Under the pieces are notes generated by a model. The model searched no databases. It worked only from the letters and a program-made list of their open reading frames with translations, and was not told the DNA's origin. From positions 32,001 to 66,430 of the forward strand of contig CABMIH010000006.1 in the NCBI GenBank assembly GCA_902386205.1: 34,430 nt of DNA, written 5' to 3'. Position 1 is the stretch's first letter; every line of letters begins with the position of its first letter. Below, in pieces: positions 12,338-32,446 of this stretch. The stretch comes from an uncultured archaeon (GTDB lineage: Archaea > Halobacteriota > Methanosarcinia > Methanosarcinales > Methanoperedenaceae). The translations under genes and the position numbers were made by a program.

Positions 12338-13643
12338 AGGTTATGCCAGGCGCGGCCTCCTGTGCAATGACAGGAATCTTAAAGAAAAGCTTGCAGACAG
12401 GATACTTGAGATAAAAAAGATCTCCAGGAAACATGCCGAAGAGATCGCCAGTGCGGTTATCGTGGAAGCAAAAGCCACCATAGACCCGCAGGGTAATATA
12501 CTGAAACCGATACATTCTGGCGTAACGATGGGTGATTTCGGCGTTGGCTCGCGCGGCATGGGGGATTTCTACACTCATGAAAAGATCGCCGAAGTGATCG
12601 GCAAAACTTCCGCGGTTGTTGATTCCTCTCATCTTGACGATTCGGGCGTGGTGCGCGCCGGGGGGCAGTATCTCGTTGTCACCATCGACGGGATGCATTC
12701 GCGCCTCTCGGATTTTCCGTTCCTTGCGGGTTTTCATGTGGCCCGTGCCGCCCTGCGGGATGTCTATGTCATGGGAGCGCGGCCTGCCGCGATGCTCTCT
12801 GACATCCATGTAGCCGATGATGGGGATGTAGGAAAGATCTTCGACCATATCGCAGGCATCACTACAGTATCGGAGCTTACAGGGATACCCCTTATTACAG
12901 GCAGCACGCTCAGGATCGGTGGGGACATGGTCATCGGGGAGCGAATGACCGGCGGCGTTGGTGCTGTCGGCATAGCAGATAATCTCACGGCGCGCATACA
13001 GGCAAAGCCGGAGGATGTTATCCTCATGACAGAAGGAGCAGGCGGCGGGACTGTCTCGACGACCGCGCTCTATTATGGGATGCACGAGATAGTGGATGAG
13101 ACGATTAACCTAAAATTCATCGATGCCTGCGAGGCGCTATTTGAAGCCGGGTTGATAGGAAAGATCCATGCAATGACCGATGTGACAAACGGCGGGGTAC
13201 GGGGTGATGCAAAAGAGATAGCAAGGACCGCTCACGTCAAATTGGTCTTTGAGGAAGAGAAAATGCGCGCACTTGTGAATAAAAAAGTGCTTTCGATGCT
13301 TGACCGGCTTGAAATTGATTACCTGGGTGTTTCACTGGATGCCTTATTGATAATCGCCCCGCCCGGACATGCGGATGAGATACTGGGATGCATCAGGGAT
13401 AAGAACGTGGCCATTGATATTGTTGGAAAAGTTGAAGAAGGTGAGGGTGCTGAATTAATGATCAACGGGGAAAAACATGAATTTACGCCCCGCTTCAGGG
13501 AATCTGCTTATACACCTATAAAGAAGCTTGTCGGGGAAAAGACCCCTCAGAATTTTGATGTAATGAGAGAGGCAGTGGATAAAGCTGCAACGCAGGCAGT
13601 GGAGAAAAAGAAAAAGATAGTTGAAAGGTTAAAAGCTAAGTGA
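12327..13643 (+). CDS. AIR synthase (PurM)/HypE-fold protein, archaeal family
   Basis: A protein of 438 residues with the PurM/HypE/SelD superfamily fold, whose members bind ATP and activate substrates by phosphorylation. Features: the N-terminal glycine-rich SGVTMGDFGVGSRGMGDF; DSSHLDDSGVV, an aspartate-rich segment of the kind that binds Mg-ATP; DVYVMGARPAAMLSDI, close to the family's DxxxMGA-P signature; MTDVTNGGVRGD; and a Lys-rich C-terminal tail. It is longer than PurM (about 340 residues) and its extra N-terminal helix is not in PurM. True purine synthesis is therefore unlikely, and an archaeal HypE-like paralog fits better. Start: ATG at 12327 with GGAG 4 bases upstream, overlapping hisH. 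It ends 8 bases inside the convergent glyS gene. The substrate is unknown. Confidence 0.85.
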   Translation: MDIEGYARRGLLCNDRNLKEKLADRILEIKKISRKHAEEIASAVIVEAKATIDPQGNILKPIHSGVTMGDFGVGSRGMGDFYTHEKIAEVIGKTSAVVDSSHLDDSGVVRAGGQYLVVTIDGMHSRLSDFPFLAGFHVARAALRDVYVMGARPAAMLSDIHVADDGDVGKIFDHIAGITTVSELTGIPLITGSTLRIGGDMVIGERMTGGVGAVGIADNLTARIQAKPEDVILMTEGAGGGTVSTTALYYGMHEIVDETINLKFIDACEALFEAGLIGKIHAMTDVTNGGVRGDAKEIARTAHVKLVFEEEKMRALVNKKVLSMLDRLEIDYLGVSLDALLIIAPPGHADEILGCIRDKNVAIDIVGKVEEGEGAELMINGEKHEFTPRFRESAYTPIKKLVGEKTPQNFDVMREAVDKAATQAVEKKKKIVERLKAK

Positions 13644-15384
13644 CCTTTTTACCTGCATCTTCGAAGGATTTGCCCCTGTAAATAAGATCATGTATCTTTT
13701 CAGCGATATCCCCCATACCGGCGCGCACCTGTCTCATGGTGTCCCTGTCCCTGATAGTGACAGTACCGTCTTTTAGTGTATCATAATCAACGGTTATTGA
13801 GTAGGGAGTGCCTATCTCATCGTTCCTGCGGTATCTGCGTCCTATTGTTCCTGAATCGTCAAAGCTTACAAGTATCCCTGCTTTTCGAAGGTTTTTTACG
13901 ATCTCGTTTGCAGGCCTGATCAATTCCTCGCGGGTAAGAAGAGGCAGCACGGCGGCCTGCACAGGCGCTACTTCAGGCGGGAGGCGCAGTACTATACGCG
14001 TTTCTTCCTCTTCTCCCTCTTCTTTTGCTTCTTCTTCATGATATGAGTGTTCAAGAAGGGAATATGTTATCCTATCAATCCCGAAGGAGGGTTCGATAAC
14101 ATGAGGTATGATAGTTTCACCGTGCACTTCCTCGCTCACGCTTTCATATGCAACGATATCCTTTTCGATAGTTATTTTTTCGCCGTCGATTTCCAACCGG
14201 ATAACACCCCCGGTCAGATCTTGCGGTTTCAATGCTTTCAGGGCAGTTGCTATTTTTCCGGCTTTTCCCTTGAACTTTGGCCCCAGGATTCCCATATTGG
14301 GCCTGACCGAAAAACGCTCGACTTTTTTCGGTTTATCGTATGGGATATATACTGCAAGCTCGGTCTCGCTTTGCTTTGCATGGGCTTTTAGATCATAGTC
14401 CGTCCTGTCTGCGATACCAACGACCTCGACCCACCCGAATCTTTCACTTTGTATCTCAGCGTCCCAGCAATCGGCGGCATAATGCGCCATTTCGTCTTTC
14501 ATGTGCTGCCTGAATCGCAGTTTATCCGGCGATACCCCTACGCGGGTAAGAAATTGATATGTCCGGGCAAGGCAATATCCCAAGAATTCATGGGCTATAA
14601 TGCCTTTTTCAACAGCCTCTTTTATCGGCATCTCCGTGGATTCCCCGGCCTCCTGCCCTTCCCTGGAATACAGGTTCAGGACGATATCCCCGATTTCCCT
14701 GAAACCCGGATGCGTCTTATCCCTGGGATCTATGAATATCTCGGCCTCGGCCTGCGTGAACTCGCGGAGGCGTATGACACCCTGCCTTGGAGATATCTCA
14801 TTGCGGTATGCCTTACCTATCTGCGTGGCGCCAAAGGGCAGGCGGTCGCGGTAGAACTTCGTAAGGCGCGGAAAGTCCACGAACATCCCCTGCGCAGTTT
14901 CGGGGCGGAGATAACCCGCGCGTTTACCGCCGGGGCCGATGCTTGTCTTGAACATGAGATTGAACTCGTAGACCTTGCCAAGCTTTCCCCCGCATTCGGG
15001 ACATTTTACATTATTTTTGCTTATGACGCCTGTAAGTTCATCAGCGCTCAGGGTATCGGGATTATCCACAACGTCTTTGACAAGATGATCTGCCCTGAAA
15101 GCTTCGTTGCATTTCTGGCATTCTGTGAGCGGATCAGAGAAACCACCCACATGTCCGGATGCGATAAAGATATCCTCAATTCCGATAGTTGGGGCCTCGA
15201 TCTCATAATATCCCTCGTTGATCACGAATATATCGCGCCAGATGTTCTCAACTCTTCGCTTGAGCATGGCGCCGAGGGGGCCGTAATCATAAAAACCTGC
15301 TGTGCCGCCGTACAGTTCAAACGAGTTCCATAAGAAACCGCGGCGCTTTGCCAGCTCTATCACCTGTTCGTATTTATCAGCCAT
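13636..15384 (-). CDS. glyS: Glycyl-tRNA synthetase (class II, archaeal/eukaryotic type)
   Basis: It charges tRNA-Gly with glycine. The 582 residues and the alpha2-type architecture fit archaeal enzymes. Motifs: the N-terminal GFLWNSFELYGGTAGFYDYGP, zinc-type cysteine pairs (CQKC and CPECGG), LRPETAQGMFVDF, FGATQIGKAYRNEISPR (motif 2), EPSFGIDRI near motif 3, and a C-terminal anticodon-binding domain (APVQAAVLPLLTREEL, then VSFDDSGTIGRRYRRNDEIGTP). The ATG is preceded by GAGGA. Upstream, a 9-base direct repeat (AATGAAACC, complements of 15431-15439 and 15448-15456) sits just before an A/T-rich TTAATAAT box. It converges with the PurM-like gene with an 8-base overlap. Confidence 0.97.
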   Translation of the reverse strand: MADKYEQVIELAKRRGFLWNSFELYGGTAGFYDYGPLGAMLKRRVENIWRDIFVINEGYYEIEAPTIGIEDIFIASGHVGGFSDPLTECQKCNEAFRADHLVKDVVDNPDTLSADELTGVISKNNVKCPECGGKLGKVYEFNLMFKTSIGPGGKRAGYLRPETAQGMFVDFPRLTKFYRDRLPFGATQIGKAYRNEISPRQGVIRLREFTQAEAEIFIDPRDKTHPGFREIGDIVLNLYSREGQEAGESTEMPIKEAVEKGIIAHEFLGYCLARTYQFLTRVGVSPDKLRFRQHMKDEMAHYAADCWDAEIQSERFGWVEVVGIADRTDYDLKAHAKQSETELAVYIPYDKPKKVERFSVRPNMGILGPKFKGKAGKIATALKALKPQDLTGGVIRLEIDGEKITIEKDIVAYESVSEEVHGETIIPHVIEPSFGIDRITYSLLEHSYHEEEAKEEGEEEETRIVLRLPPEVAPVQAAVLPLLTREELIRPANEIVKNLRKAGILVSFDDSGTIGRRYRRNDEIGTPYSITVDYDTLKDGTVTIRDRDTMRQVRAGMGDIAEKIHDLIYRGKSFEDAGKKVT

Positions 15385-15471: not shown

Positions 15472-15840
15472 TCAAATGAACATCTTGACTTTTTCCGCTG
15501 ATTTTTTTAGCTCATTCAGGACCAGGCCGACAGGGACATCATTCCCCACAAGGACCACGATCAGCGCATCCGGGCCCGCGGCAAATGTTATCAAATGTTT
15601 GTTCTCGGTTTCAACAATAATGGATTTTGGTTTTTGCTGGGACAGGCGCATTGTTGTTGAATCTGCCGACATATATAAAGTTGCGGTCAATGCTGCAAAA
15701 GCTTCACTGTTGAGCCCTCCCCCCGTATCATTGGAAACCATCAGCAACCCCTGCCTTGAAACGATCGCTGACACTTCGATTCCACCCACTGCCTCCAGGT
15801 CTGAAAGGATTTTCCCAAGGGATTGAGCTATTGTTTCCAT
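15472..15840 (-). CDS. Roadblock/LC7-domain protein
   Basis: A single roadblock/LC7 domain of 122 residues. LSDLEAVGGIEVSAIVSRQGLLMVSN begins it, ITFAAGPDALIVVLVGNDVPVGLVLNEL ends it. These proteins dimerise and in prokaryotes usually partner small GTPases or P-loop switches; no GTPase lies next to this one. I prefer the ATG at 15840; an in-frame GTG two codons upstream (15846) is possible. GGTG lies only 3 bases before the ATG. A TATA-like box (TGTATAAAG, near 15861-15868) about 25 bases upstream suggests an independent, nearly leaderless transcript rather than readthrough from PAN. A second, related roadblock gene is at 32075-32446. Confidence 0.88.
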   Translation of the reverse strand: METIAQSLGKILSDLEAVGGIEVSAIVSRQGLLMVSNDTGGGLNSEAFAALTATLYMSADSTTMRLSQQKPKSIIVETENKHLITFAAGPDALIVVLVGNDVPVGLVLNELKKSAEKVKMFI

Positions 15841-15917
15841 TTGCACCGCTTTTTTACTGCTTTATACACAAACCTTTAGAAATAGATTATGCTTATGATG
15901 CTAATTTGTAAGACCTG

Positions 15918-17156
15918 TCAGGCAAACATACCTTCAGAATGGAGACTGGGTTTTGTGCTTGCGATCGTTAGTTTTTTAATCGCTTTTAAGAAATCATCCA
16001 TTACAATGCTGTAACGCTCCTCTCTTACTGCAAGCATCCCTGCTTCCATTGTAACGGCCCTGAGATCGGAACCATTAGCGCTTTCCGTAAGCGCGGCAAG
16101 TTCATCAAAATCAATGTCTTCTTCAAGCTTCATCCTTCTTGAATGTATTTTCAGGATCATTGCCCGTGCTTCTTTGCCTGGCATCGGGATCGATATGAAC
16201 CTGTCAAACCTTCCGGGTCGCAGGAGTGCAGGATCAAGGATATCGGGCCTGTTCGTTGCCGCGATGATCCTGACATCACCGCGCGCATTGAAGCCGTCCA
16301 TCTCTGAGAGAAGCTGCATCAGTGTTCTCTGGACTTCCCTGTCCCCTGAGGTTGCGGTATCGAGACGCTTTGCCCCGATCGAATCCAGTTCATCGATAAA
16401 TATAATGCTCGGGGCTTTATCTTTTGCCATTTTAAAGAGGTCCCTGACAAGCCTTGCGCCTTCTCCGATATACTTTTGTACGAGTTCAGATCCCACGATC
16501 CTTATAAAGGCTGCTTTTGTCTGGCTTGCCACGGCTTTTGCAAGAAGCGTCTTTCCAGTTCCCGGAGGCCCGTACAATAATACTCCTTTTGGAGGTTCTA
16601 TCCCGATGCGTTCAAACACTTCAGGCCTGGTAAGGGGCAGCTCAACAGTCTCACGGATCTCCCGGATTTGCTCCTCAAGGCCGCCAATATCGGAATATGA
16701 TATATTCGGGGAATCGATCACTTCCATGGCGTTCACGTAAGGATCGCGTGAAGACGGAAGAACGCCTATTACGGCAAGACTCTGGTAATTCAAAGAAACC
16801 CGCACTCCCGGCACGAGTTCTGAACTGTTTATGATCTGCGATGAACCTACCACGAACTGCGGGCCTGTACTGCTTCGGATAATCACCTTTCCATTCTCCA
16901 GGACATCCACGACGGTGCCAACGACAAGAGGGGGTGATTTCAACCGCTCAAGCTCGCTTTTTATTTGTCTCAATTCTCTTTCGTATTTAAGCTTCTGGCC
17001 CTCTGTAAAACGCTTCTCCAATTCTATCTTGTTAGCCTGTTCCCTCAGAAGGTTATTCCTTTCTTCAAGCATCTTGATCCTGTCCATCAGATAACGGGAA
17101 AAATCGTCGCTTCCCATTCCGATAGGAACATCCCGGGTTTCCTGAGCTTCAGACAT
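15918..17156 (-). CDS. pan: Proteasome-activating nucleotidase (PAN), AAA+ ATPase
   Basis: PAN is the hexameric ATPase that unfolds proteins and feeds them into the archaeal 20S proteasome. The 412 residues contain an N-terminal coiled coil (about 20-74), an OB domain (about 77-135) and an AAA domain. It has Walker A GPPGTGKT (196-203), Walker [12 protein letters not shown] (251-261), sensor ATNRPD, and the second region of homology with arginines in RPGRFDRF. The C-terminus is GMFA: the HbYX position holds Met-Phe-Ala, with Phe in place of Tyr. Start: ATG at 17156 (MSEAQE). A longer frame to 17219 crosses the promoter and is rejected. No ribosome site is present and TATA lies about 30 bases upstream, so the mRNA is probably leaderless or nearly so. 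Confidence 0.96.
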
Positions 17157-17185
17157 TTGGTATCGAATGATATTTAAGCGTGAAC

Positions 17186-17194
17186 GATATATAG
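17186..17194. promoter_or_regulatory. Single TATA element between divergent pan and aMBF1
   Basis: GATATATAG at 17186-17194 reads CTATATATC on the other strand. The two ATGs (17156 minus, 17214 plus) are 57 bases apart, and the box sits in the middle. TATA-to-start spacing of about 25-27 bases puts transcription start at or within a few bases of each ATG. Neither ATG has a ribosome site. Another A/T box, TTAAATAT on the minus strand near 17170, is too close to the pan ATG. Confidence 0.55.
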
Positions 17195-17213
17195 AGTTTT
17201 CGTAGCGATAAAA

Positions 17214-17699
17214 ATGCAATGCGAAATATGCGGTATTGATATAAAGGGAAGTCCCATCCGGGTGACCGTGGAAGGAACTGTTCTGGATGTGTGTGGAAAG
17301 TGCGCACGCTACGGGAAGCCTTCAGATAAATGGACCCCTGTATCCAGGAAAATGTCCCCGACTGAAAAACTGGTTATTTCCCGCAGGCCGAGAAGGGATA
17401 TTTTTGATAAGATGGAGGGTGAGATCAATCCGGATTACGCCCAAATGATAAGGAAAGCCAGGGAATCAAAGGGATTTACCATAGAAGAGCTTGCTTCAAA
17501 GATAATGGAAAAGTCCGCACTGCTAAAAAAGATCGAGCGTGAGGAACTTATACCCGAGGACGCAGTAAGGAAGAAGCTTGAAACCGAACTGGAAATAAAA
17601 CTCACAGAGAGGATATCCTCCCAGGACCAGCGCGGAGGCGGCTTTATAAGGGGAACCACACTTGGGGATGTGGCCATCATAAGGAAAAAAGCGAAATAA
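17214..17699 (+). CDS. Multiprotein bridging factor aMBF1 (zinc ribbon + HTH)
   Basis: An archaeal homolog of eukaryotic MBF1 with 161 residues. The N-terminal zinc ribbon has C3xxC6 (CEIC) and C27xxC30 (CGKC). A linker with basic residues (SRRPRRD) follows. The C-terminal Cro-like HTH (about 75-130) contains [23 protein letters not shown]. In archaea this protein is associated with the ribosome and translation rather than with classical activation. It ends in a basic tail (IIRKKAK). It is divergent from pan with a probable shared TATA and leaderless start; see the promoter entry. Confidence 0.93.
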
Positions 17700-23686: not shown

Positions 23687-24451
23687 TTACACGACCACTT
23701 CCCCAAAAGCAAAATTGGGCTTGACATCTCTTATTCTTATGGTAACAGTCTCACCCTGTTTCGCGCCTTTCACGAATACCACAAAATCGTTTACCCTGGC
23801 AATACCATCCCCGTCTGCCCCCGTATCTTCAATGACCACGGTATATTCTTCGTTCATTTTCACTATCTTCGGCAGCAATTGCCTGCCTATCACATATATC
23901 TCCGCGCTTTGCTTTCGCGATGCTTCGGGGGAGAAAGCCTGCGCCTTCACAAAAGACTGGCGCGCTTTGTTTATAAAACCAGGGAACATATCCCCCTGGA
24001 AGACTTTCACAGCAAATCTTCCCCTGGGTTTTAAGATCTTCCTTGCACACTCAAGGGCCGAGGTTGCAAGGTCGATGGAACGCGCGTGGTCGTAGCTCCA
24101 GTTCCCCGAAAGATTCGGGGCAGCGTCACATATCACAACGTCAGCGCCTTCTTTCTTGATCTTTTCCCTGATCTTTTCAATTGTGGTATCAAGCCGGATA
24201 TCCCCTTTTATGGTATCCACGCCTTCAATTTCCCCGATAGGAAGTATGTCCACGCCCACAACAGTGCCGCCTGAGAGTTCCAGCGCGACCTGGAGCCATC
24301 CGCCGGGAGCAGCGCCGAGGTCAACCACAGTATCTCCTTTCCTTATCAGGTTGAACTTTTCGTTGATCTGCTTGAGCTTAAAAGCTGCCCGCGAACGGTA
24401 ACCCTCCTTCTTGGCTTTCCTGTAAAAATAATCCCTGCGGTCTCGCGGCAT
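23687..24451 (-). CDS. rlmE: 23S rRNA 2'-O-methyltransferase RlmE/FtsJ with TRAM domain
   Basis: A 254-residue FtsJ-family methyltransferase that adds a 2'-O-methyl to a uridine of 23S rRNA. The SAM motif is VVDLGAAPGGW (42-52). The K-D-K-E tetrad is visible: K25 (RAAFKL), D109 (CDAAPN), K149 (FAVKVF) and E184 (AEIYVIG), with the spacing of E. coli RrmJ. An archaeal C-terminal extension (about 200-254: YTVVIEDTGADGDGIARVNDFVVFV) is a TRAM domain that binds RNA. It is the last gene of the co-directional minus-strand block. Its start lies 1 base after the upstream methyltransferase stop. Confidence 0.95.
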   Translation of the reverse strand: MPRDRRDYFYRKAKKEGYRSRAAFKLKQINEKFNLIRKGDTVVDLGAAPGGWLQVALELSGGTVVGVDILPIGEIEGVDTIKGDIRLDTTIEKIREKIKKEGADVVICDAAPNLSGNWSYDHARSIDLATSALECARKILKPRGRFAVKVFQGDMFPGFINKARQSFVKAQAFSPEASRKQSAEIYVIGRQLLPKIVKMNEEYTVVIEDTGADGDGIARVNDFVVFVKGAKQGETVTIRIRDVKPNFAFGEVVV

Positions 24452-24452
24452 T

Positions 24453-25382
24453 TTATTTGTTCCCTATGTATACCCACTGGTCATAGATCCCTTTGCTGTC
24501 GGTATTATCAATTATATTTCCTTTGACCCCGCACTTTTCAAGCGCCTTCCCCAGGATCTCTATCTCTTCTTTCTTATACACTGTCAAAAGTATCATCCCC
24601 CCCGGCTTCAGGATTTTAGCTGATTCTTCCATTATCCTTTCCCATAGTTCCCGGTTATAAGAGTATATCATACCAAGCATAAAACCAACAATCGTGTCAA
24701 ACGATTTTTCAGTAAAAAACTGGGAAAGCCTCGTGGCATCAAGAACTATCGTCCTCTTTAGGTCAAGAACGTTATGTTCAAGCCCCTGGCAGATCTGGCA
24801 TTTGTCATTATCCACAGCCAGTGGCGCATATCCCAGTTCATGGAGCGGCAGGGTTGACATGCCGTTGCCGCAGCATATTTCAAGAATATCTCCCCTGAGT
24901 TTGTATTTATTTACCAGATCCTTTAACCTGGCATTGCGGCTTTCGATATATACCATTTCGTATGGTTCTTTTGATATGCGGCAATTCTCGCATAACTGCC
25001 TGTCCAGAAGTGCATGGGAATAATATTCGATTACCGCGTCGTTAAGTTCCCTGGATGACGTTTGGCGAAACGTCTTGATGTTCAAATTCCCTGCGATTTT
25101 TAAAAACTTCCTGCAGTTTTCATTTTGGGCGGGTTTTGAAGATATCAGGCATGTAAAGATGGCCCAGAACGCCGGGGAATCCTCAGTTTCCTGATTATAT
25201 ACAGCCACTCCCGTTACGTCCCCGTTTTCATCCCTCAGGCCAATAATTTCTTCTTGAGCGCCCCTGGGGATTTTTTCCAGATAATGCAGGGATAATGCAT
25301 TATTTTTTAGAGAAGCATAGCTTTCCTCAACAAAATATACGTTCTCTTCTGCCGTAAGTCTAAAAATATCGTGGATGAGCAT
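24453..25382 (-). CDS. Class I SAM-dependent methyltransferase of unknown substrate
   Basis: A protein of 309 residues. The SAM fold is C-terminal, with motif I ILEICCGNG (166-174), the acidic APLAVDND, VLDATRLSQFF and the post-motif KILKPGGMILLTVYK. The N-terminal 155 residues are not recognised and contain a CENC pair (131-134) and a central tryptophan- and threonine-rich stretch. They may be a substrate domain. Coupling to rlmE (1 base apart) suggests, but does not show, an RNA or translation target. It lies 8 bases after the DUF2150 gene. Confidence 0.82.
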   Translation of the reverse strand: MLIHDIFRLTAEENVYFVEESYASLKNNALSLHYLEKIPRGAQEEIIGLRDENGDVTGVAVYNQETEDSPAFWAIFTCLISSKPAQNENCRKFLKIAGNLNIKTFRQTSSRELNDAVIEYYSHALLDRQLCENCRISKEPYEMVYIESRNARLKDLVNKYKLRGDILEICCGNGMSTLPLHELGYAPLAVDNDKCQICQGLEHNVLDLKRTIVLDATRLSQFFTEKSFDTIVGFMLGMIYSYNRELWERIMEESAKILKPGGMILLTVYKKEEIEILGKALEKCGVKGNIIDNTDSKGIYDQWVYIGNK

Positions 25383-25390
25383 TACTGTTC

Positions 25391-25990
25391 TTAATCGCCT
25401 TCATCAGGTTCATCATCACGGTAACTGTTATCCCCTACCATGGCGGCGCTGATAGAATCTATGCCATCGAGCCATTCGGCCACAAGCCCTTCAGGTATGT
25501 CGTCAAGGTCCTTTTCTTTGATTTTCCCGCCAGCAAGGATATTTGCGCCGATTTCAGCGATATTACCCAGTGCTGCGCCCATATTATCTTCTTTTTCAGC
25601 CTTGACCGCGCTTTTTATCAATTTGTCAAGCGATTTTATTTTTTCAAAAGCCTTCTCCACATAACATTCGCAGGATGCAAAGACCCCCATTAGGGATAAT
25701 TGCGTTGATTCAAGCATTACATCGATATCCTCGTTTATCGGTTCTATCTTTTTCAGGACGATATCTTTTATTTCGGCGATATTTTTCAGCGCATCTTCCC
25801 TTGATAACAGGTTTTTATCAAATTTTGCTATTATTTTCAGGCATGCAAGAACAACGTCATCTTCCATATACACAAAAACAGCGCCTTTTTCTTCGTCGTC
25901 AAGCTTGAAACCGCTTTCTTTTACTTTGTTTATCCAGTTTTGCCACCGTTCTTCAGTATAGAACGGGATTGTAAATTTTGCCTCTTGCAT
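25391..25990 (-). CDS. DUF2150 family protein
   Basis: A 199-residue archaeal protein matching DUF2150, known mainly from methanogens and relatives. The beginning is FYTEERWQNWINKVKESGFKLDDEEKGAVFVYMEDDVVLACLK. The rest is predicted all-helical with charged helices (DALKNIAEIKDIVLKKIEP) and an acidic tail (DDEPDEGD). No membrane segment, metal site or P-loop is seen. Function is unknown in the whole family. It lies between the response regulator (27-base gap) and the methyltransferase (8-base gap), so it may be cotranscribed with both. Confidence 0.82.
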   Translation of the reverse strand: MQEAKFTIPFYTEERWQNWINKVKESGFKLDDEEKGAVFVYMEDDVVLACLKIIAKFDKNLLSREDALKNIAEIKDIVLKKIEPINEDIDVMLESTQLSLMGVFASCECYVEKAFEKIKSLDKLIKSAVKAEKEDNMGAALGNIAEIGANILAGGKIKEKDLDDIPEGLVAEWLDGIDSISAAMVGDNSYRDDEPDEGD

Positions 25991-26017: not shown

Positions 26018-26422
26018 TTAATTTTTGGTCACATGTCTGTTTTTTAAACCTGTTAATTTTCTTACCCTGTCTATTAATTCATTTTTCCCGAAAGGTTTTG
26101 TTATATAATCATCAGCTTTTAATACGTGCAGTCCCAGGAACTTATCTATGTTTTGCGCTTTCGCGGATAGGATAGCGATAGGAACTTTTGGGTCCTTTTC
26201 CTTGATTTTCCTGAATACATCCCATCCGTCCATGTCTGGCATCATAATGTCAAGAAGCACCAGATCAGGTCTTGAAGTGCCGATCTGCACCAATGCATCC
26301 TTCCCACTTGAAGCCTGCAAGGTTCTAAAACCTTCGCTTTCCAGCACCAATTTGACAAGTTCAAGAGTATCGGGTTCATCATCAACTATCAGCACTTTTT
26401 TATTTGGAGCGTCCTCTTTCAT
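26018..26422 (-). CDS. Receiver-only response regulator
   Basis: A protein of 134 residues, a single CheY-like receiver domain with no output domain. Acidic pocket D14/D15 (VDDEPD), phosphoacceptor D58 (LLDIMMPDMDG), S86 (ILSAK) and K109 (TKPFG) are all present, so it should be phosphorylatable. The last ten residues are basic (LKNRHVTKN). Its ATG overlaps the 3' end of the histidine-kinase gene by 23 bases, with GGAG 6 bases upstream. It is therefore coupled to, and very likely the partner of, that kinase. With no DNA-binding domain, it must act through protein contacts. Confidence 0.95.
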   Translation of the reverse strand: MKEDAPNKKVLIVDDEPDTLELVKLVLESEGFRTLQASSGKDALVQIGTSRPDLVLLDIMMPDMDGWDVFRKIKEKDPKVPIAILSAKAQNIDKFLGLHVLKADDYITKPFGKNELIDRVRKLTGLKNRHVTKN

Positions 26423-29054
26423 TCATTCTCCGTTCTGGTAATAAAATATGAAAGGTACTCCCTGTATTTTTACTTTCCGCCCATATCTTACCGCCGTGGG
26501 CTTCAACTATATTTTTTGAAACCCATAAACTCAAGCCTGTACCTCCATATTTTCGTGCACCTGACGACTCCAGGTGATAGAATTTATCAAATATGGATTC
26601 AAGTTTATCTGCCGGAATACCAATTCCGGTATCGCTTATTTTTATATGTGCGTAATTTTTTTCTTCTTCGGCTGTTATTTTTATCTCGCCTTTTATCGTA
26701 AATTTGATGGCATTATCCAGGATATAAGAGAAAACCTGTGTCAGCCTGTCCCTGTCGCCTTCAACTGTCAGTGAAGGAGGTATTTCGATAGATACCGGGA
26801 TATCCTTGATCGACGACATACTCCTCATATCTTCTGCAGCCAGTACCGCTATATCATATATCGATAACATTTGCATGTCGAGTTGAAGATTACTGGATTC
26901 GATAAGCGTTGAATCAAGCAGCCTGTTTATTAACATGGATAAACGTTTTGAGTTCCGAAGAATTGTCTCAAGTTTCTGTCTCTGTCCTTCAGTGATATTT
27001 TCATCAAGCATAAGCTCTGTATACCCCATGATCGATGTTAGTGGCGTCCTGAGTTCATGTGATATGTTTGAAAGGAAACTGTCTTTCATTTGAAAAAGTT
27101 CCTTGAGTTTCATATATGTTAGCTTCAGTTCGTCGTAAGAATCTTTAAGTTCTTCTTCAAGTTTTTTCTGGCTTGAAACGTCTTTTATAACTGTAATGAT
27201 CCTTTCAACATTGCCATTTTTGTCTTTGAGAGGTATTTTGGCCGTACTGGTAAAAATGAATTCGCCATAATATTCCATCTTTTCTTCGCTCATGAAAATT
27301 TCTCCGGTTTTGAATACATGTTCGTATTCCATATCTACACGTTTCGCTTTCAATACCGGGAAAGCTTCAAAAAGGTTCATATTCTGTATCTGTTCTTTTT
27401 TAAACATACCCCTGCTCAGGTTAAGCAATTCGTTATTAATAGTCAGGATTTTCATATCCTTATCGATCACATGGATTGCCAGGTTAACATTATTCAATAT
27501 TTCTTCGTTAAATTCTTTTAAGTATTTTATATTATTATAAAAAGAGATATTTTCTATTGCTACGCCGATCTGGTTTCCGATCGCAGAAAAAAGTTCATGA
27601 TATTTAGATGAAAATATACGAGGTTCCGAATTGCATAACCTTATTATACCAAGAACCTTATCTTTTGATTTAAGAGGTATGTGCACAGATAAAAAACCCG
27701 CATCCTTTTCATTGCTGTTTATAATATGTGGGAAAATTTTTTCATCAGTATCTCCCCTTCTTCCGGTATGAATTCTCAGATCGAAGCTTCCGTTGCTCTC
27801 ATCAAGAATATATGCCCCTGCGCTTTGCATCCCTGTGAGACTTAACAGATTTTCAAGTGTCTGCGACAGTAGTTTATCCAGATCAAATGTATCACTTATA
27901 TTTTTGGATATTTCATTAATTATTGTGAGCTCCCTGTTTCGTGCCACAAGCTCTTCTTCAAGCATTTTTTGTTGTGTTATGTCTCTTGAAACAAGAATTA
28001 TATTTATGAGATCTTTTTTATCGGAAAAAAAAGAAGCGTTCAACTCCAGTATTTTTTTAGTACCGTCTGAATATGTTTCATGTACTATCCTGATAGGAGT
28101 TCTCGTTTCAAGTAACCTGTTTACCGGGCATTCCTTTTTTTCTTGCCATGTTGCCACATTTTTAAAAATCAGATCATGGCAGGTTTTTCCCAGTACCTCA
28201 CCTTCACTCATACCGATCATTTTCAGAAAAGACTTGTTCGTTCTGATGATTTCATGATCCATGTTTATGACTATGATCCCGTCTTCAATACTGTCAAACA
28301 AAGTTTCAAGGTATTTCTGTGCAGTCTCTACCTGTTCTTTTGATGCGACTAAATCCGTGATTTTCTGGTTCAACCTCGAAGCCATTTCATTGAAGGTCCT
28401 GGCAAGGTCGCCAAGCTCATCTCTTGAGCTAATCTGGATTTTCTGGTCAAGAATCCCGTTATTTATCCTGTTCGCCCCTTCTGTAAGCTCCAGGATGGGC
28501 CCGGTCAGCCATCTTCCGATGAAATAAATAAACAGGCCCCCCAAAAACATTGCCGAAAGGGAAAGTAAAAGCAATTTCCGTGATGCGTCAAGAATCTGGG
28601 ATCTTACCCTGTTCTCAGATACCCCGATATGAACATAGCCAATGTTTTTAAAAACAGGAACACTGAATTCATGTATAATCCCTTTTTCAGTATCAAATAC
28701 ATACTCTTTCGTTTCATTTGAAGGTTTGCTCATATTTTGAAGCGCTTTCGGGAAACCTCCTTCAAACGTATTCACCAGAATTATTCCCTGGGAATCTGCA
28801 ACATAAATATATTCTATATCGGGGTAATTCTTCCTTAAAGCATCGACCGAATTCCTGATCCCCATTATATCATTTACAAGCACCGGATTTGTAATTTCCG
28901 ACGCAAGGTTATTGGCCAATAAAAATCCTTTATCGCGGAACTCACCTTCAATGATACCGGCCTGGATATCCTGGATGACTAAATATGAACCCGTTATTAT
29001 CAGGAACATTATAAAAAGTGTCGAAGCAATTATCCGGAAGCGCAGGCTTATCAT
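26400..29054 (-). CDS. Multi-sensor histidine kinase (extracellular sensor, HAMP, PAS, GAF, PAS)
   Basis: A protein of 884 residues. TM1 is at 8-27, an extracytoplasmic sensor domain at about 28-155, TM2 at about 160-180, HAMP at about 181-235, PAS at about 245-360, GAF at about 375-505 and a second PAS at about 515-630. A HisKA domain follows with H666 (NISHELRTPL), then a HATPase with N781 (DNAIKF), DTGIGIP (808-814) and GGTG (837-840). All catalytic parts look intact. PAS1 contains Cys residues (CHDLIF, ECPVNRL) that could bind a cofactor. The start overlaps the PhnD-like lipoprotein stop (ATGA), so the two are translationally coupled. It also overlaps the receiver gene. The lipoprotein may deliver the signal to the sensor domain. 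Confidence 0.94.
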   Translation of the reverse strand: MISLRFRIIASTLFIMFLIITGSYLVIQDIQAGIIEGEFRDKGFLLANNLASEITNPVLVNDIMGIRNSVDALRKNYPDIEYIYVADSQGIILVNTFEGGFPKALQNMSKPSNETKEYVFDTEKGIIHEFSVPVFKNIGYVHIGVSENRVRSQILDASRKLLLLSLSAMFLGGLFIYFIGRWLTGPILELTEGANRINNGILDQKIQISSRDELGDLARTFNEMASRLNQKITDLVASKEQVETAQKYLETLFDSIEDGIIVINMDHEIIRTNKSFLKMIGMSEGEVLGKTCHDLIFKNVATWQEKKECPVNRLLETRTPIRIVHETYSDGTKKILELNASFFSDKKDLINIILVSRDITQQKMLEEELVARNRELTIINEISKNISDTFDLDKLLSQTLENLLSLTGMQSAGAYILDESNGSFDLRIHTGRRGDTDEKIFPHIINSNEKDAGFLSVHIPLKSKDKVLGIIRLCNSEPRIFSSKYHELFSAIGNQIGVAIENISFYNNIKYLKEFNEEILNNVNLAIHVIDKDMKILTINNELLNLSRGMFKKEQIQNMNLFEAFPVLKAKRVDMEYEHVFKTGEIFMSEEKMEYYGEFIFTSTAKIPLKDKNGNVERIITVIKDVSSQKKLEEELKDSYDELKLTYMKLKELFQMKDSFLSNISHELRTPLTSIMGYTELMLDENITEGQRQKLETILRNSKRLSMLINRLLDSTLIESSNLQLDMQMLSIYDIAVLAAEDMRSMSSIKDIPVSIEIPPSLTVEGDRDRLTQVFSYILDNAIKFTIKGEIKITAEEEKNYAHIKISDTGIGIPADKLESIFDKFYHLESSGARKYGGTGLSLWVSKNIVEAHGGKIWAESKNTGSTFHILLPERRMNERGRSK

Positions 29055-29965
29055 TTGACCAGTTTCCTCATTTCCCTTATAGTATCATAAGAGCTGTCAT
29101 TTATAGTAACAAATCTGTCGATCATTATACTGGAAAGGATTTTCCTGCCTTTGTCATCCCTGTCCATATTCATGAAAATATCTTTAAGCCTTTGCTCTAA
29201 AAAAGGATCAATTTCCTTCGGAACTACAATAGGAGGATTCCCTAAAGCAGGTGATATTTCGATTATGCGTGTTTTTGATATTATTTCAGGTTTTGTGGTT
29301 TTCATATATTCATATACAAGGCTGTTTACCGCTGCGCCATCTGCCAATCCTTCAGCTACTGCGATAATGGAATAATCATGGCTGTAGGTAAAAAAATAAT
29401 TATTCATGCCTTTTTCGTCCTTTCCAAAGAAAGAATCGGGTGTTTCATTGATTAGAGCAAGCAGATATTCAGGATAAATCTTTCCTGAGCTTGATAAGGG
29501 ATCGGTAAAAGCAAATTTTTTACCGCGTAGCTGTGAAAAATTAGAATAACTGCTGTTATTCGCAACGATTATGTATGAATTATACGTTGTCCTGCCATAC
29601 ATTTCCGGCACTACGAGAAGTTTCATCCCGAACTCTGAATTGCCCTCAACATATGGGCCGCTGCAAACGAAAGCAAAATCGATTTCTTTGTTCTTGATAA
29701 GATCGTTTATTTCCTGGTATGTGCGTCTTTGTATGATTTTGACCGGCCCGTTGATTTTTATTGAGATATACTGGATCATTTCTTCATAATAAACATATGA
29801 TTCTTTAGGAGAAATGACCGATCCAATGGCGACTTTGACCGCAGGGTCACCTCCCCTGATATCAGGTTCCTGGACTATGCTCAGGTTGACTTTTTTTTCC
29901 TGCTTTTCGACGCAACCTGAGGCTATTAATAGTAATATAAAAACAATTAAATATCTATTATTCAT
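29051..29965 (-). CDS. PhnD-like substrate-binding lipoprotein
   Basis: A protein of 304 residues. The N-terminus MNNRYLIVFILLLIASGC is a lipoprotein signal with the lipobox IASGC, so it should be anchored outside the membrane at Cys. The mature part matches the PhnD/phosphate-phosphonate type II periplasmic binding fold: VAIGSVISPKESYVYYEEMIQYIS, the NDLIKNKEIDFAFVCSGPYVEG loop, FAFTDPLSSSGKIYPEYLL and ALGNPPIVVPKEID. The ligand is unknown; relatives bind phosphonates, phosphite or other small anions. No ABC ATPase or permease is nearby. With the ATGA overlap to the kinase, this points to a sensory rather than transport role. GGGAT precedes the ATG. Confidence 0.92.
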   Translation of the reverse strand: MNNRYLIVFILLLIASGCVEKQEKKVNLSIVQEPDIRGGDPAVKVAIGSVISPKESYVYYEEMIQYISIKINGPVKIIQRRTYQEINDLIKNKEIDFAFVCSGPYVEGNSEFGMKLLVVPEMYGRTTYNSYIIVANNSSYSNFSQLRGKKFAFTDPLSSSGKIYPEYLLALINETPDSFFGKDEKGMNNYFFTYSHDYSIIAVAEGLADGAAVNSLVYEYMKTTKPEIISKTRIIEISPALGNPPIVVPKEIDPFLEQRLKDIFMNMDRDDKGRKILSSIMIDRFVTINDSSYDTIREMRKLVK

Positions 29966-29970
29966 CGATG

Positions 29971-30267
29971 TTATCCCTTAATAAGTTCTTTTATTACCCA
30001 TCCCCAGTATTTTATTGATGCGACCAGACCTAAAGTCAAACCGATTGAAAAAAAAGTATATCCTATTAAATTAGTATTTTTTAAATCGACCATGGCCATT
30101 ATGATAGAGCCGGAAAACGTGAAAAATATACCTGCATAATATATATAATAATATTTTTTCATCCCCATAACTTCACCAAGCCGCTTACTGAAAACACTTA
30201 AAAAATAAAGTATTAATGTAAATAAAAAAATAGATAAAGAATCAATCATTTCTAATTTAATACTCAT
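29971..30267 (-). CDS. Small membrane protein B of the KaiC-PhnD-kinase operon
   Basis: A 98-residue protein not recognised. Hydrophobic helices lie at about 8-28, 38-58 and 68-88 (LSIFLFTLILYFLSVFS, YYIYYAGIFFTFSGSIIMAMV, GYTFFSIGLTLGLVASIKYWG), with short polar loops. GGAG lies about 6 bases before the ATG. Its first 11 bases overlap the 3' end of membrane protein A, and the two share length and three-helix layout, so they may be paralogs. It ends 5 bases before the lipoprotein start. A membrane adaptor for the sensing system is a reasonable guess only. Confidence 0.78.
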   Translation of the reverse strand: MSIKLEMIDSLSIFLFTLILYFLSVFSKRLGEVMGMKKYYYIYYAGIFFTFSGSIIMAMVDLKNTNLIGYTFFSIGLTLGLVASIKYWGWVIKELIKG

Positions 30268-30547
30268 TTTTTACTCCGACCATTATCCTGTAAAGATAAT
30301 AACTTGCCGCAAAAGAAGCGACAGACCCGGTAAATTCCAACAATTCGTCTACAAGCGCATTATATGAAAAAAGATGAACACCAGCCACAAAAAGAATAAA
30401 AATAGGAATTATATACATATAATAAAATGTTTTTTTTCCGAATTTCTTCTGATAAAATGCTGCTATTGCTGCAATAAAAATCATTATGAAACTGGCAGCA
30501 ATCCATGAGTATATTCTAATAAACGCACTGAATAATATTTCTGTCAT
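30257..30547 (-). CDS. Small membrane protein A of the KaiC-PhnD-kinase operon
   Basis: A 96-residue protein not recognised. Three hydrophobic helices lie at about 10-30 (IYSWIAASFIMIFIAAIAAFY), 42-60 (YYMYIIPIFILFVAGVHLFS) and 73-90 (GSVASFAASYYLYRIM), with basic loops (QKKFGKK). A lone AAAGGAT precedes the ATG. It starts 5 bases after the KaiC stop and overlaps membrane protein B by 11 bases, so translation is coupled. Both A and B are rich in Tyr and Phe and contain Y-Y-x-Y patterns (YYMYI here, YYYIYY in B), which supports a common origin. Confidence 0.78.
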   Translation of the reverse strand: MTEILFSAFIRIYSWIAASFIMIFIAAIAAFYQKKFGKKTFYYMYIIPIFILFVAGVHLFSYNALVDELLEFTGSVASFAASYYLYRIMVGVKNEY

Positions 30548-30552
30548 ATCCT

Positions 30553-31995
30553 TTACTTTTTAAATGCTTCCACAAAAGCTTCAGAAAATACCCTGATGGG
30601 ACTACCTGACATCAATCCTGAGTATTCCGTGAATGGAAGCCTTATTTCAACACCTTTTCTGCTTACAACGAATTCCCTGATCTCCTTGTCGTGATCGCTG
30701 CTTTTCATCTTGAGTACGGATATGGCTTTTCGCATCTCGCTCTTTATTTCCACATACCTCAGCAATATGATGACATCCATTTTTGGTGAAATGCCTGCGC
30801 ATGTCACCTGGTCCGTACCTGTCAGGTTCGAGCTCTCATTTGTATATATAGCGGTTAGATTTTTATTTTTTAAATTATTGATAATAGCTCCCAGATACTC
30901 ATGGAATGATATAAACTGGGGCATCATTCTTTTAAGCCTTGCCATACCATCAACCAGCAAACGCCTGGCTTTGATTTTTTCAATCGTTTCGTCTATTTGC
31001 ATCGCAAGTTCATGGGCGTCAAATTCAAGTGGATTTATAAATTTTAGCAAGTTTTTATTTTCAAAATCTTCTAAATTCCATCCGAACTGCTTTGAATTTT
31101 CACGTATCTGGACAGCATCCTCTTCAAATGATATTATAATGCCGGGTTCTTTTTTTAATAAACCATCAAAAATGAATTGTGTTCCGATTATAGTCTTACC
31201 CATTCCGCTTGGGCCGGAAAGCAATATGGAAGAACCTCTTATAAAACCTCCGCCTGTCATCAGGTCCATTCCCTTTATTCCGCATGAAAGCCGTTCTATC
31301 GATATTGTTTTCCTCTCACCGGGGGATAACCTGGGAAATACTGCAAATCCATCCTTTGTTATTTTGCATGAATGTTTACCCCCCTGGAAATCCTGCCCTC
31401 TCATCTTGAGAATATTGATATAGCGGATATTGCGATCGTAAAAAGGCTCATAATCAATATAAATAACCCCGTCGACCAGGTAACTTATAGTGCTTTTGAC
31501 AAGCTCCTTCTGGGTAAACTCGCCTGTCAACAGGACAAGGGAGTTCCAGCTTTTCATGCTTGTGAAAAACTCATAATAGAACTGGCGCTGGGATTCTTCA
31601 TCCATTCCCATTGTGAACACATTCACGGGGTCGATAACTATCCTGTCGGGCTTGATAGTTTCCACGTTCTTTTCCATTTCGTTGATAATGGCTTTCGGGC
31701 CCTTATGGAGGACTTCAATATCAATAGGCACATACTTTACATTACCTTTTCCAAGGAATGAGAAATTATAAAATGAGAATCTTGACATGAAATTGTTGAT
31801 CATGGCTATAGGCTCGGAAAGCGATGTAATGTACATGCAGACCTCTTCATTTTTTGCAGCTTTGAAAAGCGATTGCATTGCAAATGTGGTCTTTCCTGTC
31901 CCTGCGGTCCCTGCAATTAATAGAATCGACGGTCGCAGGAAACCTCCTTCCAATACTTTGTCAAGACCGTTTATGCCTGTGGCAACCTGTTTCAT
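30553..31995 (-). CDS. Double-domain KaiC-like ATPase
   Basis: A RecA/KaiC-family protein of 480 residues with two tandem ATPase domains. Domain 1 has Walker A GTAGTGKT (29-36) and DRIVIDPVN (about 117-125). Domain 2 has GPSGMGKT (261-268), RRLLVDGMARL, and the glutamates FEED (290-293). The C-terminal DVIILLRYVEIKSEMRKAISVLKMKSSDHDKEIREF is very close to cyanobacterial KaiC around its CII phosphosites. Domain 1 reads SLSE (58-61) where KaiC CI has FEE, so one catalytic glutamate may be missing. At the KaiC S431/T432 pair this protein has S-P (403-404). It is encoded between a roadblock gene and the two membrane proteins. AGTGAG precedes the ATG. It is likely an ATP-driven switch, but no clock role is implied. 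Confidence 0.92.
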   Translation of the reverse strand: MKQVATGINGLDKVLEGGFLRPSILLIAGTAGTGKTTFAMQSLFKAAKNEEVCMYITSLSEPIAMINNFMSRFSFYNFSFLGKGNVKYVPIDIEVLHKGPKAIINEMEKNVETIKPDRIVIDPVNVFTMGMDEESQRQFYYEFFTSMKSWNSLVLLTGEFTQKELVKSTISYLVDGVIYIDYEPFYDRNIRYINILKMRGQDFQGGKHSCKITKDGFAVFPRLSPGERKTISIERLSCGIKGMDLMTGGGFIRGSSILLSGPSGMGKTIIGTQFIFDGLLKKEPGIIISFEEDAVQIRENSKQFGWNLEDFENKNLLKFINPLEFDAHELAMQIDETIEKIKARRLLVDGMARLKRMMPQFISFHEYLGAIINNLKNKNLTAIYTNESSNLTGTDQVTCAGISPKMDVIILLRYVEIKSEMRKAISVLKMKSSDHDKEIREFVVSRKGVEIRLPFTEYSGLMSGSPIRVFSEAFVEAFKK

Positions 31996-32074
31996 GATAT
32001 CTCACTTTTCGTGGTAATAATTTTCAAATTATAACAATCTTTCTATTTATTATCAGGTTTTTAACAATATTTAT

Positions 32075-32446
32075 TCAGTATGTGCCAAGGACCTGATTTA
32101 TTTTTTCGGATGCTTTTGCGACCTCGACCAATACTAATCCAAGACCTGCATCAGGTCTTGTCATAACTATGAGTATCGCCTTCGGCCCTGCCCCTGTTGC
32201 AATGATCTTTGCATGCTTTGATTCCACTATCACCCTGTCCGGAATGCCTTTTCCAAGCTCGGACGTTGCAGTTTCAGCTGCTCCAAGCATTGTAGCCGAC
32301 ATTGCGCAAAATGTCTCTGTTTTATTTTTTTGGGGTACATTTGAATATATTAGTAAGCCGTCCCTGCTTGCTATTGCCGACGCTTCGATACCCCCGATGT
32401 TCTTGAGGTCGGCCATTATCTTTTCAAGAATTTCTACAGTTGTCAT
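32075..32446 (-). CDS. Roadblock/LC7-domain protein heading the KaiC operon
   Basis: A single roadblock/LC7 domain of 123 residues: IMADLKNIGGIEASAIASRDGLLIYSN at the start, KIIATGAGPKAILIVMTRPDAGLGLVLVEVAKASEK at the end. It is clearly related to the roadblock protein at 15472-15840, sharing LK-IGGIE-SAI-SR-GLL. GGGG lies a few bases before the ATG. TATA-like boxes lie upstream on the minus strand, at 32492-32499 and about 32508-32517. The KaiC gene begins 79 bases downstream. In that gap TTATAATTT (near 32028) might give KaiC its own promoter. Roadblock proteins typically regulate P-loop switches, so KaiC is the natural candidate partner here. Confidence 0.9.
   Translation of the reverse strand: MTTVEILEKIMADLKNIGGIEASAIASRDGLLIYSNVPQKNKTETFCAMSATMLGAAETATSELGKGIPDRVIVESKHAKIIATGAGPKAILIVMTRPDAGLGLVLVEVAKASEKINQVLGTY

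Follow-up and report, generated by a model that had tools for sequence, protein, structure and literature searches.

Introduction

In the HptA-HptS-HptR system of Staphylococcus a binding protein is paired with a membrane kinase, and there, as in LuxP-LuxQ and TorT-TorS, the binding protein acts on the kinase without transport. Archaeal KaiC proteins are said to serve as signalling hubs, a view reportedly set out by Makarova, Galperin and Koonin in a 2017 paper that PMC5847659 cites. LuxP and TorT have been named alongside ArrX and AioX, which are sensors acting on a kinase and play no role in transport; ArrX binds arsenate (Kd 1 µM) and phosphate (150 µM), and AioX binds arsenite (PMC5908839). 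Here we describe a seven-gene locus (26018–32446) on the minus strand of a 34,430-nucleotide stretch of DNA, the window, from an uncultured archaeon of the Methanoperedenaceae. The locus encodes, in this order, a roadblock protein (Robl), a KaiC ATPase, two small membrane proteins (m1 and m2), a binding lipoprotein (X, first labelled PhnD), a sensor histidine kinase and a lone receiver. Comparison with related genomes makes it rather probable that these proteins form a signalling unit at the membrane, produced by the addition of an ArrX/ArrS-type receptor head to an old archaeal KaiC core, with output via KaiC.

The signals answered by archaeal KaiC proteins are largely unknown, and at this locus a KaiC comes with a defined receptor; among relatives of that receptor, structures have been solved and ligands measured. 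As in the archaeal hubs, genes for a kinase and a receiver adjoin that of a KaiC-family ATPase; what appears to set the locus apart from those hubs is the linked m1/m2 pair together with the ArrX-type head. With the ArrXSR and AioXSR systems (PMC5908839) it shares the subfamily of X, most of the pocket residues, the X-S-R gene order, the lack of an ABC transporter and a homologous sensor half of the kinase. In contrast to them, its receiver lacks an output domain and is not of the ArrR type, the catalytic half of its kinase is not of the ArrS type, reductase genes are missing from the locus, the X-S-R genes lie behind Robl-KaiC-m1-m2, and a pocket Asp is replaced by Asn. LuxP and TorT are more distant, since they belong to other binding-protein families and have conventional outputs. 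A first-pass annotation of the window recognized no named system with this set of genes. The lipoprotein–kinase pair proves to be of a known kind (ArrX/AioX-ArrS), but no description of such receptor-to-KaiC wiring was found in the literature open to search.

The KaiC-m1-m2 core

All seven open reading frames are confirmed on the minus strand, and together with the Pfam assignments they bear out the consecutive arrangement that was first proposed, including the overlaps of 4 bp (ATGA) between the X and kinase genes, 11 bp between m1 and m2, and 23 bp between the kinase and receiver genes. The window genome (G000, 2.79 Mb, 95% complete) was compared mostly with draft assemblies, in which the absence of a gene can reflect assembly loss. 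The window KaiC shares 93% identity with its counterpart in Candidatus Methanoperedens sp. MnB_21; most of the remaining close loci carry the label Methanoperedens. Families are denoted f1 (the window's own), f2 (loci labelled ANME-2 cluster or Methanosarcinales), f3, f5 (loci labelled Methanosarcinaceae) and f15, which lies outside the class.

KaiC, m1 and m2 occur together in four families of the order (f1, f2, f3 and f5), usually with Robl and often with a kinase and a lone receiver. The arrangement Robl-KaiC-m1-m2 is common to f1, f2 and f5, and f3 has KaiC-m1-m2, usually plus a kinase. The f15 genomes, of another class, have a single-domain KaiC with m2, accompanied in two of three by a receiver. 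With an m2 profile, 238 genomes of the class and 393 of the phylum were searched. Among the 23 regions fetched for its hits, 20 have KaiC upstream of m1/m2; at L120 the contig starts at m2. The input side beside the constant KaiC-m1-m2 varies, being another Cache kinase, Rsb-type genes, or none. Judged from these gene orders, KaiC-m1-m2, with or without the kinase and receiver, is the old core, to which X was added only in f1 and then lost several times. The first-pass annotation had missed this core, along with the composite nature of the kinase described below; its suggestion that KaiC and the small membrane proteins are the likely output side is supported.

At L118:1600-9100 (G078:C82), KaiC-m1-m2 is followed by four genes and then by a kinase and a lone receiver; by their sequences the four appear to be of the RsbR, RsbS, RsbT and RsbX types, as in a stressosome. 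Nob1- and GfcR-like genes behind m2 in f5 were judged from their sequences to be unlinked housekeeping genes.

The m1 (30257..30547) and m2 (29971..30267) proteins, of about 97 residues each, are three-helix membrane proteins assigned by alignment and AlphaFold and, for m2, by its adjoining KaiC. Neither has a Pfam family above cut-off, and sub-threshold matches (MASE3, RseC_MucC, TMEM174) were not used. The predicted layouts are the same, with helices 2-36, 42-60 and 64-90 in m1 (pLDDT 85) and 3-34, 40-58 and 65-97 in m2 (pLDDT 86), and hhalign finds a weak similarity between the two proteins (E 1.6e-4, probability 50). A fold search with m1 against the PDB gave no match with E below 1. Conserved motifs are FYQKKF..KT in the basic loop of m1, and SKRLGE.MGMKKYYY and KYWGWLIKE in m2. 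The most conserved segments of both are the basic loop and the C-terminus, which by the positive-inside rule would face the cytoplasm. Two small membrane protein families without a Pfam entry are tied to KaiC, and they are a candidate for the point where KaiC and the membrane meet.

Robl (32075..32446, 123 aa; Pfam PF03259, E=3.6e-13) adjoins KaiC in f1, f2 and f5. A roadblock protein is also part of the MglA/MglB polarity switch, which in Myxococcus reportedly also involves a protein with a receiver domain (PMC6785124). Unlike in that switch, the nucleotide-hydrolysing protein of the window locus is KaiC; Pfam finds no small Ras-like GTPase within the locus, to which this search was confined. 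A close Robl paralog lies directly after two KaiC-like open reading frames at L242:3083-5320 (G000:C21), a second Robl-KaiC pairing in the window genome.

The double-domain KaiC (30553..31995, 480 aa; Pfam KaiC 7e-83) was aligned to KaiC structures in the PDB. As in the cyanobacterial KaiABC clock, both halves have an intact Walker A motif; a motif table over the aligned KaiC proteins has the catalytic EE pair intact in CII and reading SE in CI. The protein is related to cyanobacterial-type KaiC (E 6e-75), and its Ser403 and Pro404 align with the KaiC phosphosites Ser431 and Thr432. Wherever a KaiC sequence covers the first of these sites, it retains the Ser. These properties might suit a Kai-type clock variant, with the kinase and receiver as input and output of a KaiC that keeps time rather than senses. 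However, the locus has neither KaiA nor KaiB and offers putative membrane partners instead, Thr432 is replaced by Pro in nearly all members of the genus, and the three KaiB of the window genome over cut-off occur only at C41, beside a different KaiC. A clock variant is accordingly very improbable. The C41 locus (L244:5100-8700; G000:C41:63300-66200) is of the KaiBC type, with a separate KaiC of 592 aa and three KaiB-like genes; genes for a kinase and a receiver lie in its vicinity.

The lipoprotein X and its relatives

X (29051..29965; lipobox ASGC; Pfam PF12974 Phosphonate-bd, 9e-56) has ArrX (6x6b) as its best PDB match by phmmer (4.6e-54), followed by AioX (4e-35), PtxB (3e-17) and PhnD (3.5e-8). 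Of the seven pocket residues described in PMC5908839, six are kept (Y83, C101, Y128, S158, S160 and H196), and N214 stands where the pocket has an Asp (Asp210). The full set (Tyr, Cys, Tyr, Ser, Ser, His, Asp) is present in about 10 of 22 KaiC-linked X proteins vs 10 of 11 paralogs that are not part of a KaiC operon. In the X tree the KaiC-linked set falls on one side of a branch with a support of 33/0, too low to fix the direction or date of its transfer from an arrX-type gene.

The Phosphonate-bd fold could also be expected of the binding subunit of a phosphonate or phosphate ABC transporter encoded elsewhere. The search for its PhnE permease in the ~95% complete window genome yielded nothing over the 216.7-bit cut-off, and a single weak PhnE-like match at C16 (31 bits, E 1e-7) is what speaks for a transporter besides the fold; as far as PhnE goes, this explanation is rejected. 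Moreover, the closest solved relatives of X are sensors rather than transport proteins, the 4-bp overlap with the kinase gene is conserved, and paralogs of ~50% identity likewise stand in X-S-R order. We give a transport role hardly any credence. By sequence X belongs to the ArrX/AioX type of sensor and has no transporter of its own, and the proposal of a binding lipoprotein coupled to a kinase is upheld. Elsewhere in the window genome, at L084:7773-14624 (G000:C88), two Phosphonate-bd proteins precede a membrane kinase and a LivJ-like lipoprotein precedes another kinase; at C88 pairs of binding protein and kinase recur without KaiC.

Eight Methanoperedens genomes encode additional X proteins elsewhere, 48–54% identical to the window X, each followed by a kinase and then by a regulator of 210–218 aa; the C-terminal extension of the 210 aa regulators is taken, from its sequence, to be a putative DNA-binding domain. 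A molybdoenzyme adjoins these X-S-R genes in seven of the eight genomes, accompanied by four-cluster iron-sulfur-type, NrfD/DsrP-like and TorD-like proteins, and a TtrA-like enzyme follows in G008. Two X-S-R sets of this kind are present in G014. Sister species thus possess true arrXSR-arrAB-like clusters. For the molybdoenzyme at L142 the best model is ArrA, at 469 bits, far under the 1600-bit cut-off. Two reductases of the ArrA/ArxA group have been described in M. nitroreducens by Leu et al., and arsenate reduction has been proposed for these anaerobic methane oxidisers (PMC7327174). A search of the window genome gave no ArrA-like match at E<1e-100, which argues against the KaiC-linked receptor being simply a component of arsenate respiration, and no arsenic molybdoenzyme is found among the genes neighbouring the locus. 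The KaiC-linked X may bind phosphate or some other oxyanion, with arsenate still a candidate.

The sensor kinase and the lone receiver

The kinase (26400..29054, 884 aa) comprises TM-Cache-TM-HAMP, PAS-GAF-PAS and HisKA-HATPase regions by Pfam, the sCache match being weak. BLAST of each half gave different relatives. Over residues 31-232, the whole Cache-TM-HAMP region aligns with ArrS of the genus at 32–36% identity (E 2e-38 to 7e-33), and kinases of other KaiC operons match mainly around HAMP. Residues 641-884 match KaiC-operon kinases of other families and of paralog clusters at E 2e-47 to 3e-65 vs only 3e-20 to 1e-25 for ArrS. In the kinase tree ArrS separates at 100/100, and on the KaiC-operon side there are also three general kinases from the window genome. 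On this comparison the kinase is a chimera, with an ArrS-like extracellular half and a catalytic half of the KaiC-operon type.

The receiver (26018..26422; Pfam E 7e-31; acceptor D58) is 57–63% identical to receivers of KaiC operons, including those of another class (58–63%), and 28–34% identical to ArrR-type receivers. Pfam finds neither an output domain nor a DNA-binding domain in its 134 aa, as originally recognized. From the matches of the two kinase halves and the receiver identities it follows that the catalytic half and the receiver belong with KaiC, and X and the sensor half with ArrX-ArrS.

Conservation of the gene order

The order Robl-KaiC-m1-m2-(X)-kinase-receiver is found across Candidatus Methanoperedens and in one sister genus. 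It is kept in Methanoperedens species with KaiC identity as low as 68%, a recurrence that indicates more than chance, and the claim of a conserved unit, checked by adjacency across genomes, proved correct. A KaiC ortholog with same-order neighbours, as far as the contigs reach, is present in 27 of 34 f1 genomes. G079, with a KaiC of 47% identity, was counted apart; the remaining six are G002, whose contig ends within the X gene, three incomplete genomes, G073 and G078. An intact X is present at 20 of these 27 loci, but X is absent from six (G001, G012, G013, G014, G022 and G070) and broken in G011. The 4-bp overlap with the kinase gene is present in 14 intact orthologous loci besides the window, and L059 has a partial second X copy between X and the kinase. 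The Cache domain is retained in four loci without X. In G014 and G070 the kinase lacks the whole membrane half (368 and 374 aa), X and Cache both being lost; an intact X with a lost Cache was seen in none of the loci examined.

Several observations weigh against a single unit with output via KaiC. G073 (L152) and G078 (L149) keep X-S-R and DUF2150 without adjacent Robl-KaiC-m1-m2; neither has a KaiC ortholog, each retains a KaiC paralog, and in G078 an apparent m2 remnant (SVKYKNWLIK) persists. Conversely, KaiC-m1-m2 stands without kinase or receiver in f5, where Robl is included, and at L124, and m1-m2 lacks an adjacent KaiC at L128 and L129 (G149 and G027). The pocket Asn of the window X in place of a conserved Asp, and three orthologs that have lost four pocket residues, belong here as well. 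Because G073 and G078 keep X-S-R after loss of KaiC-m1-m2, the target of the receiver may be another KaiC or lie elsewhere. The G073/G078 and f5 loci would be accommodated if X-S-R were an independent three-component system whose receiver acts on another KaiC, or in trans on a partner of the chemotaxis-like or DNA-binding kind, and if Robl-KaiC-m1-m2 were separate, merely sharing a transcript or promoter region. Yet the catalytic half of the kinase and the receiver are of the KaiC-operon lineage and not of the ArrS/ArrR lineage, and a kinase or receiver adjoins KaiC-m1-m2 in f1, f2, most f3 loci, paralog clusters and two f15 genomes. Two separate systems are therefore somewhat unlikely, and a KaiC core with an acquired receptor head remains the preferred reading. 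At L128 and L129, m1-m2 keeps the flanking genes that it has elsewhere in f5, Robl and KaiC being gone from there.

Proposed mechanism

In the proposed unit, an outside oxyanion of the arsenate/phosphate kind would bind X, and X would act on the Cache domain of the kinase, which in turn would phosphorylate Asp58 of the receiver. The receiver may then act on the KaiC ring, as suggested by gene linkage and by KaiC-receiver fusions reported in Methanosarcinaceae (PMC5847659). A candidate fusion in G027 was ruled out, as Pfam finds no receiver in the 554-aa KaiC. Presumably the m1/m2 pair holds the KaiC ring at the membrane and Robl assists KaiC as a helper; the output would be protein contact rather than direct DNA binding. 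What KaiC controls, like every step after the receiver, belongs to the inferred part of the proposal. The signal direction first suggested, from ligand through kinase and receiver to KaiC, is thus supported by comparison, short of proof.

More tentatively, the outside oxyanion might set the state of a membrane-held KaiC via the lone receiver, a three-component receptor having been re-wired from gene control, and KaiC-m1-m2 would be an output module in general use among archaea, bearing interchangeable heads (Cache kinases, the ArrX/ArrS head, Rsb-type stressosome genes). Natural comparisons are available in sister species, where this type of receptor ends in a larger regulator next to arsenate-reductase-like genes, and also in the same core with other heads and in the receptor losses.

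Neighbouring genes

Behind the receiver, on the same strand, lie genes for a DUF2150 protein (25391..25990; Pfam PF09920), a methyltransferase (24453..25382; Pfam) and an RlmE/RrmJ-TRAM rRNA methyltransferase (23687..24451; family match), separated in turn by 27, 8 and 1 bp, and their order is kept in the genus. The transcription unit probably extends past the receiver into these three genes. DUF2150 and the methyltransferase (24453-25990) are syntenic behind the receiver across most of the genus. A second roadblock protein of the window (15472-15846) adjoins a PAN-like proteasomal ATPase (15918-17219) and a tRNA synthetase-like gene (13636-15384).

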